Below are positions 14,352 through 45,279 of a stretch of 64,000 nucleotides of DNA, one piece after another. Every line of letters begins with the position of its first letter. Position 1 is the first letter of the stretch. The DNA lies in assembly GCF_003202235.1 (NCBI RefSeq), contig NZ_MASU01000005.1, forward strand, positions 744,001 to 808,000, read 5' to 3'. A program made the position numbers and the translations under genes. Source of the stretch: Prauserella flavalba. Its GTDB lineage: Bacteria > Actinomycetota > Actinomycetes > Mycobacteriales > Pseudonocardiaceae. Under the pieces are notes generated by a model that saw only the letters and a list, made by a program, of their open reading frames with translations, searched no databases and was not told the DNA's origin.

Positions 14352-15359
14352 CTAGGTGTAGAGCAGCTCGTCGAGCAGGTCCTGCATCGTGACCAGCCCG
14401 ACGACGGCGTCGCCGTCCTTGACGAGCGCGAGATGGTCGCGCCGGTCCCGCATCGTCGTCAGCGCCGTGTGCACCGGCGTGTCGGCGGGCAGGGCCTGCG
14501 CCGGCCGCATCAGGTCGGCCGCCGTCGTGCCCTCCGGCTCGGCGAGCGTGTCGCGGACGTGCACGACGCCGAGCGTGCGCGAGTCCTCGCCGAAGACGAC
14601 CAGACGCAGGTGCCCGCTCGTGCGCGACACCTCCTGGATCTCGGCGACGCTCGCGGCGAGCGGCACCGCGGCGACGTCCTCCCTCGGGGCCATGACGTCC
14701 CGCACCCGCCGTGACCGCAGGTCCAGAGCGGTGGCCAGCTGCTCGTGCCGCGACGCGTCCAGCGCGCCCGCCTCGGCCGAGTGGTCGACGAGCTGACGGA
14801 GGTCGTCGGGCGTACGGCCCGCACTGACCTCGTCCACGGCCTCCACACCCACGCGGTGCAGGCACCAGTTGGCGATGCCGTTGAGCGCGACCAGCAGGGG
14901 CCGGGTGAACCACATGAACACCCGCATCGGGATCGCCAGCATGGTCGCCGAGCGCTCCGGGTGCGCGATGGCCCACGACTTCGGCGCCATCTCGCCCACC
15001 ACGAGGTGCAGGAACGTGACCACCACGAGGGACAGCACGAACGCCAGCACGTCCGACGTCGCCGCGGGTACGCCCCAGCCCTCCATCACGGGCGTGAGCA
15101 TGTGGTGCACGGCTGGCTTCGCGACCGCACCGAGCGCGAGCGTGCACAGCGTGATGCCCAGCTGCGAACCGGCCAGCAGCAGGGAGAGCTCCCTGGCGCT
15201 GGCCAGTGCGGCCCGGGCGGAGGCGCTGGACTCGGCCGCGTCCTCCAGCCGGTAACGCCGGGCGGCGACGAGCGCGAACTCGACCGCGACGAAGAACGCG
15301 CTCAGCGCGATGATCGCGGCCGCGATCGCCATGGCGAGCCACGGACTCAGGTCGCTCAC
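14352..15359 (-). CDS. CNNM/CorC-type membrane protein with CBS pair (shorter paralogue)
   Basis: 335 residues from GTG 15359, overlapping the upstream paralogue by 4 bases. A DUF21/CNNM membrane domain (about 1-185, three or four helices, with FFVAVEFALVAARRYRLE and VGEMAPKSWAIAHPE) precedes two CBS domains (about 215-335). Unlike its neighbour it lacks the C-terminal CorC_HlyC domain and ends right after the second CBS. The family is linked to Mg2+ or Co2+ movement; calling it haemolysin is historical. The pair probably works together. Confidence 0.88.
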   Translation of the reverse strand: MSDLSPWLAMAIAAAIIALSAFFVAVEFALVAARRYRLEDAAESSASARAALASARELSLLLAGSQLGITLCTLALGAVAKPAVHHMLTPVMEGWGVPAATSDVLAFVLSLVVVTFLHLVVGEMAPKSWAIAHPERSATMLAIPMRVFMWFTRPLLVALNGIANWCLHRVGVEAVDEVSAGRTPDDLRQLVDHSAEAGALDASRHEQLATALDLRSRRVRDVMAPREDVAAVPLAASVAEIQEVSRTSGHLRLVVFGEDSRTLGVVHVRDTLAEPEGTTAADLMRPAQALPADTPVHTALTTMRDRRDHLALVKDGDAVVGLVTMQDLLDELLYT

Positions 15360-16726
15360 CGGTCCACCTCCTCGGTCGTCCGGCTGCGTTCCTCGACCCG
15401 GAGGCGCACGCTCGCGGGGACGTGCCGGTCCACGGCGCCGACGGTGACCGTCAGCAGCCGCTGGGGCTCCTCGTCGGTGGCGCCGGGGCGGCGGGGCAGC
15501 TCGACCGTGACGCTGTCGCCCTGGCCCGGCAGTGTGCCGAGCTCGGTGATCACCAGGCCGCCGATCGTCTCGTAGTCGCCCTGCGGGAGGTCGTGCCCGA
15601 GCAGGCGCTCGACCTCGTCGATGTGCACGCTGCCCGCGAGCAGCCAGCCGCCGTCGTCGAGCCGCGTCGCCGCCTCGCCCGCCGGGTCGTGCTCGTCGGC
15701 GATCTCGCCGACGAGCTCCTCGGCGACGTCCTCCACGGTGATCACCCCGGCCAGGCCGCCGTACTCGTCGACGACGCAGGCGAGCTGCTCACCGGCCTCG
15801 CGCAGCTGCGCGAGCACCTGCCGCAGCGGCAGCGACGAGGGCACCATCACCGCGTCCCGCGCGATGTCGGTGACCCGGCGCGCGCCGCGGTCGGCGGGGG
15901 AGAGGGCGAGGACGTCGCGCAGGCACACGATGCCGCGCACGTCGTCGACGCCGTCGCCGAGCACCGGGTAGCGGGAGTGCCCAGACGCCATCAGGGTCAT
16001 CACCTCGTCGACGGTCGCCGTGCCCGGCACCGTCGCGACGCGCGGACGCGGGATCATCGCGTGCTCGGCGGTGCGCTCGTGGAGATCGAGCACGCGGTCG
16101 AGCAGCGTGGACAGCTCGTCGGGCAGGTCGCCGCTGCGGCGCGACTCGTCGACGATGCGCTCGAGGTCACGCGGGGTCGCCGCGTGCTCGACGTCGTGCA
16201 CCGGTTCGATGCGCACCGCCTTGAGAAGCAGGTTCGAGGCGTGGTCGAACAGTTTGATCAGCCAGCCGAACGCCGCGAGGTAGACGTTGGTCGACCACGC
16301 GAGCCACCGGGAGACGGGTTCGGGCCGTGCGATCGCCAGGTTCTTCGGGAACAGCTCCCCGAAGACCATCTGCACCACGGTGGAGAACAGCAGGGCGAGC
16401 ACGGTACCGATCGCCACGCCCGCCGACTGGGAGAGGCCGGCACCGCCGAGCAGCTCGCCGACACCGGCGCCGATCAGCGGCTCGGCGACGTAACCGACGA
16501 GCAGACCGGTGACGGTGATGCCCAGCTGGGCACCGGAGAGCATGAACGACGTGCGCCTGGTGATCGTCAGTGCACGGGCGGCGCCGCTGTCGCCGTCGGC
16601 GGCGCGGGCCTTGAGTCGGGAACGGTCCACGGCCATGTAGGCGAACTCCTGGGCGACGAAATAGCCCGTCGCGGCGGTGAGCAGGAGAACCACGAGCATG
16701 CCGAGGAGAATGTCGACAATGATCAT
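15356..16726 (-). CDS. CNNM/CorC-type membrane protein with CBS and CorC_HlyC domains
   Basis: 456 residues. Membrane domain about 1-195 (GYFVAQEFAYMAVDRSRLKA, FGELFPKNLAIARPEP), CBS pair about 215-335 (RYPVLGDGVDDVRGIVCLRD, CVVDEYGGLAGVITVEDVAEELVGEI) and a C-terminal CorC_HlyC domain about 350-445. The CBS pair likely senses Mg-ATP. First gene of a two-gene leftward operon; the 21-bp repeat array starts about 170 bases upstream. Confidence 0.9.
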   Translation of the reverse strand: MIIVDILLGMLVVLLLTAATGYFVAQEFAYMAVDRSRLKARAADGDSGAARALTITRRTSFMLSGAQLGITVTGLLVGYVAEPLIGAGVGELLGGAGLSQSAGVAIGTVLALLFSTVVQMVFGELFPKNLAIARPEPVSRWLAWSTNVYLAAFGWLIKLFDHASNLLLKAVRIEPVHDVEHAATPRDLERIVDESRRSGDLPDELSTLLDRVLDLHERTAEHAMIPRPRVATVPGTATVDEVMTLMASGHSRYPVLGDGVDDVRGIVCLRDVLALSPADRGARRVTDIARDAVMVPSSLPLRQVLAQLREAGEQLACVVDEYGGLAGVITVEDVAEELVGEIADEHDPAGEAATRLDDGGWLLAGSVHIDEVERLLGHDLPQGDYETIGGLVITELGTLPGQGDSVTVELPRRPGATDEEPQRLLTVTVGAVDRHVPASVRLRVEERSRTTEEVDR

Positions 16727-16893: not shown

Positions 16894-17036
16894 GCGAGTC
16901 GTGCACTCCGGACCGCGAGTCGTGCACTCCGGACTGCGAGTCGTGCACTCCGGACTGCGAGTCGTGCACTCCGGACTGCGAGTCGTGCACTCCGGACTGC
17001 GAGTCGTGCACTCCAGACCGCGAGTCGTGCACTCCC
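16894..17036 (+). repeat. 21-bp tandem array, seven units (locus 1, plus orientation)
   Basis: The core GCGAGTCGTGCACTCC starts at 16894, 16915, 16936, 16957, 16978, 16999 and 17020, exactly 21 bases apart. This fills most of the 392-base gap between the CNNM gene start (16726) and the desaturase stop (17119). Nothing else coding is supported there; open frames across it translate the repeat into a repeating heptapeptide and are not genes. Confidence 0.95.
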
Positions 17037-17054
17037 GTGCCGCGGCGGGCGACC

Positions 17055-17112
17055 TGAACGCACAACTCGCGGTCCTGAACGCACGACTCGCGAGCGGGAA
17101 CGCACGACTCGC
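17055..17112 (-). repeat. 21-bp tandem units, three copies in opposite orientation (locus 1)
   Basis: Units begin at 17055, 17076 and 17097 (21-base period) and read GCGAGTCGTGCGTTCC on the minus strand. They start six bases after the desaturase stop codon and face the seven-unit array at 16894-17036, so the desaturase transcript could fold the two halves into a long imperfect stem. The same core appears at 34958-35057 and 44398-44520. Confidence 0.92.
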
Positions 17113-17118
17113 GGCGCG

Positions 17119-18153
17119 TCAGCGCAGTGGGGCACCAGCGTGGTGGAGGTGCCGTAGCGCCTCGCGGTAGGAGGTGACGAGGCCCGTCTCGTGGTAGGGC
17201 ACGCCGATCTCGGCGCAGTAGTCGCGCACGATCGGCTGCGCGCGGCGCAGGTGCGGCGACGGCATGCTCGGGAACAGGTGGTGCTCGATCTGGTAGTTGA
17301 GCCCGCCGAGCGCGACGTCGGTGAACCAGCCGCCGCGCACGTTGCGCGAGGTGAGCACCTGACGGCGGAGGAAGTCGGGCCGCTCGTCGCCGCTGAACAT
17401 CGGCATGCCCTTGTGGTTCGGCGCGAAGATCGATCCCATGTAGACACCCCAGAGTCCCTGGTGGACGGCGATGAACACGAGGGCCTTGCCCGGGGAGAGC
17501 ACGAGGAACACGGCGGCGAGGTAGGCCACGACGTGGGTGGTGAGCAGCAGGGCCTCCAGACTGCGCCGCTTGAGCCCGGGGGAACACACGGCCCGGAAGC
17601 CCGACACGTGCAGGTTGAGACCCTCCAGTGTCAGCAGTGGGAAGAACAGGGCCGCCTGCCTGCGCCCGATGAACCGCGCCAACCCCGAGCTGTGCCGCGC
17701 CTGCCGCTGCGACCACACCAGGATGTCGGGCGCGACGTCGGGGTCGAGCTCCTCGTGGTTCGGGTTGGCGTGGTGGCGCGTGTGCTTGTCCATCCACCAG
17801 CCGTAGCTGAGGCCGATGCCGAGGTTGCCCACCAGCAGCCCGAGCGCCTCCGTCGGCCGGCGGCGCCGGAACACCTGGCGGTGGGCGAGGTCGTGCGCCA
17901 GCAGCGCGATCTGTCCGAAGAGGACGGCCAGGAACGCCGCCACCGCGAGCTGCCACCACGAGTCGCCCAGCAGGAAGAACGCCAGCCATGCGGCCGCGAA
18001 CAGCACACCCACGACGGCGAACCTGGCGACGTAGTAGCCCGGACGGCGCCGGAACAACCCGGCCTCGGAGATCCGCTGGGACAGGCGGGAGTAATCGCTG
18101 CCGCGAACGGGCGGCGCGAGGTCGTCGATAGTCACCTGCCCGAGTCTGGTCAT
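17119..18153 (-). CDS. Membrane fatty acid desaturase
   Basis: 344 residues from ATG 18153. Three histidine boxes of the acyl-lipid/acyl-CoA desaturase superfamily are present: HDLAH, HTRHH and QIEHH, the last with Gln as in front-end and mycobacterial DesA3-like desaturases. Hydrophobic stretches flank them (about 50-90 and 200-235). The enzyme inserts a double bond into a fatty acyl chain at a di-iron site. A partner reductase is not adjacent. The 3' end runs straight into the 21-bp repeat. Confidence 0.93.
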   Translation of the reverse strand: MTRLGQVTIDDLAPPVRGSDYSRLSQRISEAGLFRRRPGYYVARFAVVGVLFAAAWLAFFLLGDSWWQLAVAAFLAVLFGQIALLAHDLAHRQVFRRRRPTEALGLLVGNLGIGLSYGWWMDKHTRHHANPNHEELDPDVAPDILVWSQRQARHSSGLARFIGRRQAALFFPLLTLEGLNLHVSGFRAVCSPGLKRRSLEALLLTTHVVAYLAAVFLVLSPGKALVFIAVHQGLWGVYMGSIFAPNHKGMPMFSGDERPDFLRRQVLTSRNVRGGWFTDVALGGLNYQIEHHLFPSMPSPHLRRAQPIVRDYCAEIGVPYHETGLVTSYREALRHLHHAGAPLR

Positions 18154-34957: not shown

Positions 34958-35057
34958 GGAACGCAGAACTCGTTGTCAGGAACGCACAACTCGCGGTCCT
35001 GAGCGCAAAACTCGGCGTCTGGAGCGGGCGACTCGCGGGCGTGAGCGCACGACTCGC
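34958..35057 (-). repeat. 21-bp tandem array, five units (locus 2)
   Basis: Units begin at 34958, 34979, 35000, 35021 and 35042, exactly 21 bases apart, with minus-strand core GCGAGTCGTGCGTTCC in degenerate form. The array starts five bases after the stop of the leftward thioesterase gene and ends before the SOS promoter. Same family as loci at 16894-17112 and 44398-44520. Confidence 0.93.
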
Positions 35058-35062
35058 GAGGG

Positions 35063-35491
35063 TCACGAGTGGGGCATCGGCTCCAGCGTGTGCAGGAGCT
35101 TGGCGATGCGCTCGGGGACCGGGGTCTTGCGGTGCTCCAGGTCGCGGCACGCGAACGTCATGGTGCCGGTGGTCACCAGTTCGTCGCCTCGGTGGAAGGT
35201 GAAACCGAGCGTGTACGAGGAGCCGCCGACCCGTTCGCGCCGCACCTCGCACGTCAGCTCGTCGAAGACCGTCACCTGGCGCAGGTAGGTCGCCTCCGAG
35301 TGCACGCCCACGACGTACACGCCGAGCTCCTCGGACAGCTGTCCCGCCCGGATCCCGTTGTCGTAGAGCCACGAACTGTAGGTGCGCTCCATCCACGGGT
35401 AGTAGATCGCGAAGTAGGCGATTCCCACTGTGTCGCAGTCTCCGTACGACAGCCGGAAACTCTGCGTCGTGCCGCTCAACGGATCCCTCAC
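35063..35491 (-). CDS. Hot-dog fold acyl-CoA thioesterase
   Basis: 142 residues from GTG 35491, forming a GTGA overlap with the preceding gene. FRLSYGDCDTVGIAYFAIYYPWMERTYSSWL is the 4-hydroxybenzoyl-CoA thioesterase/YbgC signature, with the catalytic Asp in GDCDTVG. It likely releases free acid or rescues CoA in the pathway. Last gene of the leftward P450-ligase operon; the 21-bp repeat follows its stop. Confidence 0.9.
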   Translation of the reverse strand: MRDPLSGTTQSFRLSYGDCDTVGIAYFAIYYPWMERTYSSWLYDNGIRAGQLSEELGVYVVGVHSEATYLRQVTVFDELTCEVRRERVGGSSYTLGFTFHRGDELVTTGTMTFACRDLEHRKTPVPERIAKLLHTLEPMPHS

Positions 35492-44397: not shown

Positions 44398-44520
44398 GGA
44401 ACGCAAGACTCGTGGTCGGGAACGCAAGACTCGTGGTCGGGAACGCAAGACTCGTGGTCGGGAACGCAAGACTCGCGGTCCTGAGCGGGCGACTCGCGGG
44501 CTGGAGCGTACGACTCGCGG
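44398..44520 (-). repeat. 21-bp tandem array, six units (locus 3)
   Basis: Units begin at 44398, 44419, 44440, 44461, 44482 and 44503, all 21 bases apart. Minus-strand core is GCGAGTCGTGCGTTCC-like. The array starts directly after the TAA stop of the SDR gene and ends 15 bases before the hydratase start, so it fills the whole intergenic space of this leftward operon. Confidence 0.95.
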
Positions 44521-45279
44521 TTACTTCGGGGGCATGCGGATCGCGCCGTCGAGGCGGATCGTCTCGCCGTTGAGCATCGGGTTGTCGACGATGTGGTGGG
44601 CCAGCGCGGCGAACTCGTCCGGGTCGCCGAGCCGTTGCGGGTGCGGGGTCTGCCTGGCGAGGCCGTCGCGGATCTCGTCGGAGAACCGGGACAGGATCGG
44701 GGTGTCGAAGGTACCGGGTGCGATGGAGCACACGCGCACGAGCTTGCGCGCCAGGTCCCGGGCGGCGACCAGCGTCATGCCGACCACGCCGGACTTGGCC
44801 GACGCGTAGGGGATCTGTCCGATCTGTCCTTCCCACGCGGCCACCGACGCGGTCAGCACGCACACGCCGCGTTCGCCGTCGACCGGCTCGTTGGTCACCA
44901 TCCGCGCCGCGGTCAGCCGCAGCACGTTGAACGAACCGATCAGGTTGGTCCGCACGATCGACTCGTAGGTCTCCAGGGAACCGGGGGAGCCGTCGCGCTC
45001 CACGACGCGAACGGTGCCGCCACGGCCCGCGCAGTGCACGAGGGCGCGGATCGGCGCCTGCGCGAGGTCGAGCGCCTCCGACACGGCGCCGGCGTCGGCG
45101 ACGTCAGCGGGGCCGAAGCGCACCAGCTCGCCCAGCTCCTTGGCGATCCGCTCGCCGTCGGACGTGGGCAGGTCGACGATCACGGTGGGCACGCCACGTT
45201 CCACGAAGCGGCGCACGGTCGCGAGGCCGAGGCCCGAGGCGCCACCGGTGACGACGGCGGCCGAGTTGTCCAGCTTCAT
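44521..45279 (-). CDS. 3-hydroxyacyl-CoA dehydrogenase type-2-like SDR
   Basis: 252 residues. TGGASGLGLATVRRF, HCAGRGG, LTASVAAWEGQIGQIPYASAK with catalytic Ser/Tyr/Lys, and IAPGTFDTPILSRF match the HSD10/FadB2-like family that oxidises 3-hydroxyacyl-CoA, including 2-methyl-branched forms. Just downstream of the thiolase, as expected for the last two beta-oxidation steps. The 21-bp repeats follow the stop without a gap. Confidence 0.92.
   Translation of the reverse strand: MKLDNSAAVVTGGASGLGLATVRRFVERGVPTVIVDLPTSDGERIAKELGELVRFGPADVADAGAVSEALDLAQAPIRALVHCAGRGGTVRVVERDGSPGSLETYESIVRTNLIGSFNVLRLTAARMVTNEPVDGERGVCVLTASVAAWEGQIGQIPYASAKSGVVGMTLVAARDLARKLVRVCSIAPGTFDTPILSRFSDEIRDGLARQTPHPQRLGDPDEFAALAHHIVDNPMLNGETIRLDGAIRMPPK

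Follow-up and report, generated by a model that had tools for sequence, protein, structure and literature searches.

The stretch of DNA considered here, which we call the window, is 64 kb of the genome of Prauserella flavalba. It carries 21 copies of a short repeat unit at three loci (7 + 3, 5, and 6 units), and inside every array all neighboring units are spaced at 21 bp. The arrays and the genes beside them lie as follows.

15356..16726, minus strand: CNNM/CBS/CorC_HlyC transporter-like gene, on the other side of the desaturase-locus array
16894..17035, plus strand: seven-unit array (GCGAGTCGTGCACTCC plus a 5-bp spacer per 21-bp unit), the arm distal to the desaturase stop
17036..17054, no strand: apex of 19 bp, separating the two facing arms of the desaturase locus
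17055..17112, minus strand: three-unit array, the arm next to the desaturase stop, at a gap of 6 bp
17119..18153, minus strand: fatty acid desaturase gene (Pfam FA_desaturase)
34958..35057, minus strand: five-unit array, single arm, 5 bp past the thioesterase stop
35063..35428, minus strand: 4HBT thioesterase gene (Pfam)
44398..44518, minus strand: six-unit array, single arm, with the short-chain dehydrogenase (SDR) stop 2 bp away and the start of the next gene 15 bp away
44521..45279, minus strand: SDR gene (Pfam adh_short)

The sequence-only reading of the window had named the leftward genes as those of a desaturase, a thioesterase and an SDR, each with an array beginning right after its stop codon; Pfam concurs with all three names, and the gaps between stop and array are 6, 5, and 2 bp. 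It had also proposed a 16-base core shared by the units. As an exact string this core occurs in just one window unit, and the part that stands is GAGTY...CRYTC plus a G at position 18; at up to three mismatches the core is matched 19 times in the window against 3.45 by chance, a number that none of 100 shuffles reaches. Genome-wide the unit takes the form (GC)GAGTYNNNCRYTCnnG, with C2 G3 A4 G5 T6 Y7 NNN C11 R12 Y13 T14 C15 conserved and G18 mostly so, and this pattern holds when the conserved positions of each half-unit are checked on neighboring units picked through the other half only. The unit resembles an imperfect dyad, GAGT-YNNNC-RYTC, with a trinucleotide at its center.

Period and placement of the arrays

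Over the whole P. flavalba genome, 423 adjacent unit pairs stand at 21 bp and the reversed pattern gives none; nor does that control find any array in the P. flavalba sequence fetched for closer analysis. Close intervals between perfect units in this genome measure 21 bp in 302 cases, 20 bp in 1 and 22 bp in 2, and the corresponding numbers in the other genomes are 606, 0, and 5, so that the pooled sets hold 908 intervals at 21 bp and 8 at either 20 or 22 bp. The exact period of two helical turns that had been read from the window is thus borne out genome-wide and across genera, with the spacing kept at the other loci. A typical array has 3–7 units, and its spacers are almost without insertions or deletions; because the letters of the spacers diverge by about one-third between P. 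flavalba and P. endophytica, such changes of length would be expected, and the period is therefore probably under constraint. Two turns of B-DNA are the simplest reason for a period of 21 bp. Another would be the need to hold two RNA arms in register, yet loci with one arm keep the 21 bp as well. Two unrelated-looking 21-bp tandem arrays, in Sporosarcina aquimarina (L248:6450-7032) and in a Planctomycetaceae MAG (L240:2386-2527), also fit a relaxed form of the pattern, possibly by chance or as coding repeats.

Placement was analyzed at 59 loci, nearly all of them intergenic, drawn from 1.99 Mb of the 8.09-Mb P. flavalba genome, with gene calls that are our own, made from codon usage, and not curated annotation. 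The arrays lie between convergent genes at 24 loci and in tandem gaps at 31, and they are largely absent from divergent promoter regions (4 of 59). On the stop side the distance to the gene is 1–13 bp in 54 of 67 cases, while start-side distances are broad (6 to 562 bp), and none in the other genomes falls between −5 and 15 bp. Within tandem gaps the stop is no more than 13 bp from the array at 25 of the 31 loci; uniform placement predicts 6.9, and the maximum in 100,000 simulations was 16. The closeness to stop codons read from three loci thus holds throughout the genome. It is less marked in A. thermalba (16 of 26 distances on the stop side), in a second Amycolatopsis genome, G145 (4 of 13), and in genome G014 (2 of 12). 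The long, nearly contiguous blocks of P. flavalba sequence (1.33 Mb, partly assembled around stretches bearing arrays) contain 20 loci among 1,265 gene junctions, or about 1.6% of junctions, which extrapolates to roughly 120 per genome; at such a frequency the arrays are not general terminators.

Two facing arms are present at 35 of the 59 loci, always in the order plus then minus, and the remaining 24 have one arm. The arrays are polar along their length: at two-arm loci of P. flavalba, T occupies position 7 in 3% of the two outermost units and in 59% of the innermost, and this holds for either arm. Where a single-armed array separates convergent genes, it mostly has exactly four units (79 bp), and in most such cases it occupies nearly the entire gap between both stops (e.g., C2:78789-78867, C5:174802-174880, C7:300387-300465, and C13:260071-260149). 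At G000:C13:94543-95655 an antisense array of ten units lies behind a small gene and a facing 2 + 7 array lies on the gene's other side, which places the gene within a pair of inverted arrays.

Pairing between facing arms

The sequence-only reading had noted that the desaturase array inverts midway, which would let its RNA form a long stem, and had left the choice between phased protein-binding sites and a 3′-UTR element. The stem does form in silico, far better than in shuffled sequence (z = −7.9), which is inevitable for similar arrays in inverted orientation. For the window's two single-armed loci the predicted fold is weak (z = −1.4 and −1.9). We considered whether the transcribed array, through GAGU/RYUC stems in each unit or a stem between arms, might form or protect the 3′ end of the mRNA in the manner of a factor-bound terminator or a REP-type stabilizer. 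Beyond the fold of the desaturase locus, such an RNA element would account for the behavior of tandem loci, where the arms pair better in the sense transcript than in the opposite strand (0.851 versus 0.541 at positions 12-13) and the sense strand has the lower minimum free energy in 13 of 18 cases, and for the unit variants of Prauserella, which preserve sense GAGU-RYUC pairing including G-U wobble.

These indications are opposed by the result obtained when plus and minus arms are shuffled among the loci into random pairs. With the apex units left out, spacers agree less between the arms of one locus than between randomly paired arms in P. flavalba (0.474 versus 0.546, with none of 5,000 permutations as low), in P. 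endophytica (0.462 versus 0.516, P 0.001), and in the nine loci of A. thermalba (0.406 versus 0.478, P 0.03). Several such tests were run uncorrected, and the P. flavalba signal is far beyond that multiplicity, whereas that of A. thermalba is not. Same-locus arms are less alike at every free unit position tested (12-13, 16, 17, and 19-21), and at the tandem loci of P. flavalba they pair below random combinations at free positions on both strands. Perfect palindromes or hairpins between arms thus seem to be avoided, a new finding, and one that would be expected if perfect palindromes were unstable as DNA. Long palindromes are indeed unstable in bacteria.

The second difficulty for an RNA element is polarity, which is mostly flipped in Amycolatopsis, another new finding: 10 of 12 two-arm loci there have the opposite orientation (the count pools stretches of G129, itself A. 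thermalba, with other A. thermalba stretches, and the two sets may overlap), whereas the three Prauserella genomes give 0 of 60. The wobble argument fails in the flipped arrays, and a function requiring GAGU...RYUC in the transcript cannot be common to the two genera. To this must be added the 24 of 59 loci that are single-armed and the flanks after the arrays, in which no run of T was seen by eye, a feature that actinobacterial terminators may lack in any case. Searched against Rfam, the whole window gave no match at the gathering threshold, and we set aside a known RNA family. The long arm-arm hairpin as a selected feature, first suggested by the wobble asymmetry, was weakened by the permutation tests, and we regard an RNA element as distinctly unlikely. 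Avoidance between arms, the many one-arm loci and their weak folds in the window together favor phased sites for a putative protein over a 3′-UTR stem.

The central trinucleotide and its change between species

Arrays of this kind are scattered over one actinobacterial family. At least one unit pair occurs in 26 of 200 family genomes and 12 of 46 genera, some of these genera having only one to a few pairs, and outside the family the sample of the order yielded just two single matches. The carriers belong to Prauserella (P. flavalba, P. endophytica, P. cavernicola, and P. muralis), Amycolatopsis (A. thermalba and several others), Actinokineospora (one genome), and Pseudonocardia (one genome). 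Beside the 423 pairs of P. flavalba, P. endophytica has 364 and A. thermalba 341; three genomes of the A. thermalba genus (G026, G092, and G112) have none. Exact core matches at about positions 1500-1515 of L069, L072, L073, and L074 fall in what the sequence indicates is rmlA-type (glucose-1-phosphate thymidylyltransferase) coding sequence; these single matches in other genera read as the codons GTHDSL of an RmlA-type gene, and an origin from rmlA was rejected, the likeness being taken as coincidence.

The spelling of the central trinucleotide goes by species, like a dialect: GTG in P. flavalba, CCC in P. endophytica and CCA in A. thermalba, again a new finding. Counted as neighboring pairs with the same center over whole genomes, GTG accounts for 326 of 423 pairs in P. 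flavalba and 9 of 364 in P. endophytica, with 4 in P. cavernicola and 0 in nine other genomes. CCC pairs number 1 in P. flavalba, 150 in P. endophytica, and 79 in P. cavernicola, while two genomes from a different genus have 65 and 129; CCA makes up 187 of the 341 pairs of A. thermalba, with 24 and 9 in two more genomes of its genus and 0 in Prauserella. Many of the P. flavalba stretches analyzed in detail were picked by the exact GTG core, but the 20 loci of the contiguous blocks still have 82% GT-type centers. Centers are as similar between units of different P. flavalba loci (identity 0.628) as between units of one locus (0.636), while spacers are locus specific (0.095 within, 0.027 across), which indicates that the center belongs to the genome and not to the array. 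Where both types of center coexist in P. flavalba, the older-looking ones are nearer the apex.

Comparison with P. endophytica, a close relative whose array flanks are 93.4% identical to those of P. flavalba, shows how the dialects differ. For all 23 P. endophytica arrays that could be mapped to the analyzed P. flavalba sequence (about 21 of them distinct), P. flavalba likewise carries an array in that position, which is not an unbiased rate, many of the P. flavalba stretches having been chosen for their arrays. With units matched by spacer, the center differs in 47 of 63, some aligned units not being strict orthologs, as unit numbers differ between the species. At one shared locus four units align one-to-one with identical spacers, and their centers read CCCCC, CCCCC, TCTGC, TCTGC versus CGTAC, CGTAC, TGTGC, TGTGC. 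The thioesterase array (34958..35057) is found in the same place in P. endophytica, its spacer order nearly identical and its centers partly changed. Centers have therefore changed in situ, at array positions common to sister species, which again is new.

Gain and loss are visible over longer distances. The desaturase stop is an empty site in P. cavernicola, where the stop is directly followed by conserved downstream sequence, and it carries 1 + 2 units in P. endophytica and 3 + 7 in the window; no target duplication is visible by eye between empty and occupied sites. The more distant G014 shared no array with P. flavalba in the few regions compared. Presence or absence of the elements thus changes at the level of the genus, sister species seem to keep them, and the number of units varies.

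Growth of ordinary, functionless tandem repeats by slippage would explain that unit number varies between species at the same place and that spacers are locally homogenized. It fits poorly with divergence between P. flavalba and P. endophytica that is 1–4% at most core positions, about 30% at free positions, about a third at spacers, and 53–61% at the centers (flanks 6.6%), with the near absence of spacer indels, with dialects that run through whole genomes, and with the strong anchoring to stops; we consider it highly improbable. A CRISPR array is also ill fitting, the spacers in the window being 5–6 bp and of low diversity, not unique and of repeat length, so that the original judgment against CRISPR holds. 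Other origins were examined and rejected. The REP/RAYT system is disfavored because the RAYT gene (Y1_Tnp, PF01797) is absent from all 12 array-bearing genomes tested, the sole positive, G007, having no arrays. Templating by a reverse transcriptase is disfavored because reverse transcriptase genes do not track the arrays, none being present in array-rich A. thermalba or in other tested array-bearing Amycolatopsis-type genomes, and because the spacers are not templated. Viral contigs contain no three-unit array, which speaks against a phage origin, and the genes enclosed by facing arrays resemble normal cellular genes, with no transposase recognized among them by eye, which speaks against a transposon with arrays as its ends.

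Molecular drive deserves more weight. The units might spread themselves, as uptake-type signals, or be homogenized by short-tract conversion, and gather behind stops as the least harmful place. The DNA uptake sequences (DUS) of Neisseriaceae are short words described in many copies, with genome-wide species dialects and with inverted pairs at terminators (PMC3630211, PMC2397512), and an in-situ change of dialect with kept spacers and locus-independent centers is the trace that a genome-wide drive would be expected to leave. Yet a DUS occurs as one short word or as an inverted pair and not as a phased 21-bp array, anchoring at 1–13 bp in long tandem gaps is tighter than tolerance requires, and the candidate agents of spread (RAYT in the tested genomes, reverse transcriptases in A. 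thermalba, viral contigs) were not found with the arrays. We think drive unlikely, but it remains a serious rival, since the rewriting of hundreds of centers within about 7% divergence is hard to achieve by site-by-site selection.

A possible role, and known systems compared

The explanation we tentatively prefer is that the arrays are 3′-end elements composed of sites for a putative factor acting in trans, in all likelihood a protein that binds DNA, and that a filled array would form a boundary at the gene end. The protein would occupy one face of the helix in two-turn steps of 21 bp, reading the sites in trans on double-stranded DNA in a dialect set for each species, and a filled array 1–13 bp past a stop could serve as a transcription roadblock, a terminator or an insulator; an array between convergent genes would be a boundary for both. 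That DNA rather than RNA is read is suggested by the avoidance of matching between same-locus arms and by the flipped polarity in Amycolatopsis. The unit, its 21-bp period, the placement on the stop side, the dialect, the in-situ change of centers and the avoidance of pairing between arms are computed results; we infer the factor, its action on DNA and its boundary role, and the boundary function could lie in stopping polymerase, in insulation or in another process. Several points weigh against this explanation: a changed factor tracked at hundreds of sites by selection alone is as hard to account for here as above, stop proximity weakens in Amycolatopsis and G014, and the arrays occupy just about 1.6% of gene junctions.

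A more doubtful possibility is a genome-wide code of self-identity, in which a reader or writer acting in trans sets the centers for each species. One change in that protein would lead to most centers being rewritten in situ, with spacers untouched and facing arms kept from becoming perfect palindromes. The center is rewritten at hundreds of copies between relatives as if it were read in the cell as a species-specific code. Should a factor acting in trans set the dialect, Amycolatopsis/Prauserella-type actinomycetes would have a sequence-specific reader that is apparently undescribed. These actinomycetes are producers of medical antibiotics. The arrays would also be a second independent case, beside DUS, of a dispersed signal whose spelling changes at hundreds of sites among members of one genus, a case in which selection, molecular drive and conversion could be told apart by comparison. 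For annotation the lesson is one of caution, as the arrays resemble CRISPR arrays and terminators and fit neither.

In the literature, of which our coverage was partial, we found no described family that matches these arrays, but several systems share some of their features. The Sal boxes of eukaryotic rDNA, bound by TTF-I, form arrays that terminate transcription as polar roadblocks. REP/BIME elements, which are associated with RAYT transposases, are dispersed and extragenic, lie at 3′ ends and often form inverted pairs or arrays. Our arrays are likewise extragenic and at 3′ ends, with facing arms at 35 of 59 loci, but their unit does not have the REP form of a palindrome plus guide tetranucleotide, and Y1_Tnp is missing from the 12 genomes tested. 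In Beggiatoaceae and others, intergenic direct repeats of the 7-bp unit TAACTGA stand just upstream of starts and are presumed to be sites for a trans-acting regulator (PMC4679880); they too come as many short arrays whose position with respect to genes is constant, whereas the present unit is 21 bp long, lies just downstream of stops and has species dialects. With DUS the arrays have in common many copies, a genome-wide species dialect and frequent inverted pairs, and they differ in being tandem at exactly 21 bp, in lying 1–13 bp after stops, in combining constant outer bases with a variable center, and in their hosts, which are high-GC actinobacteria, for which an uptake signal is not known. 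Like the Sal boxes, they are arrays of putative protein sites, located past gene ends, at which RNA polymerase could be halted; unlike them, they are bacterial, their binding protein is only putative, and the polarity of the unit relative to the gene differs between genera.
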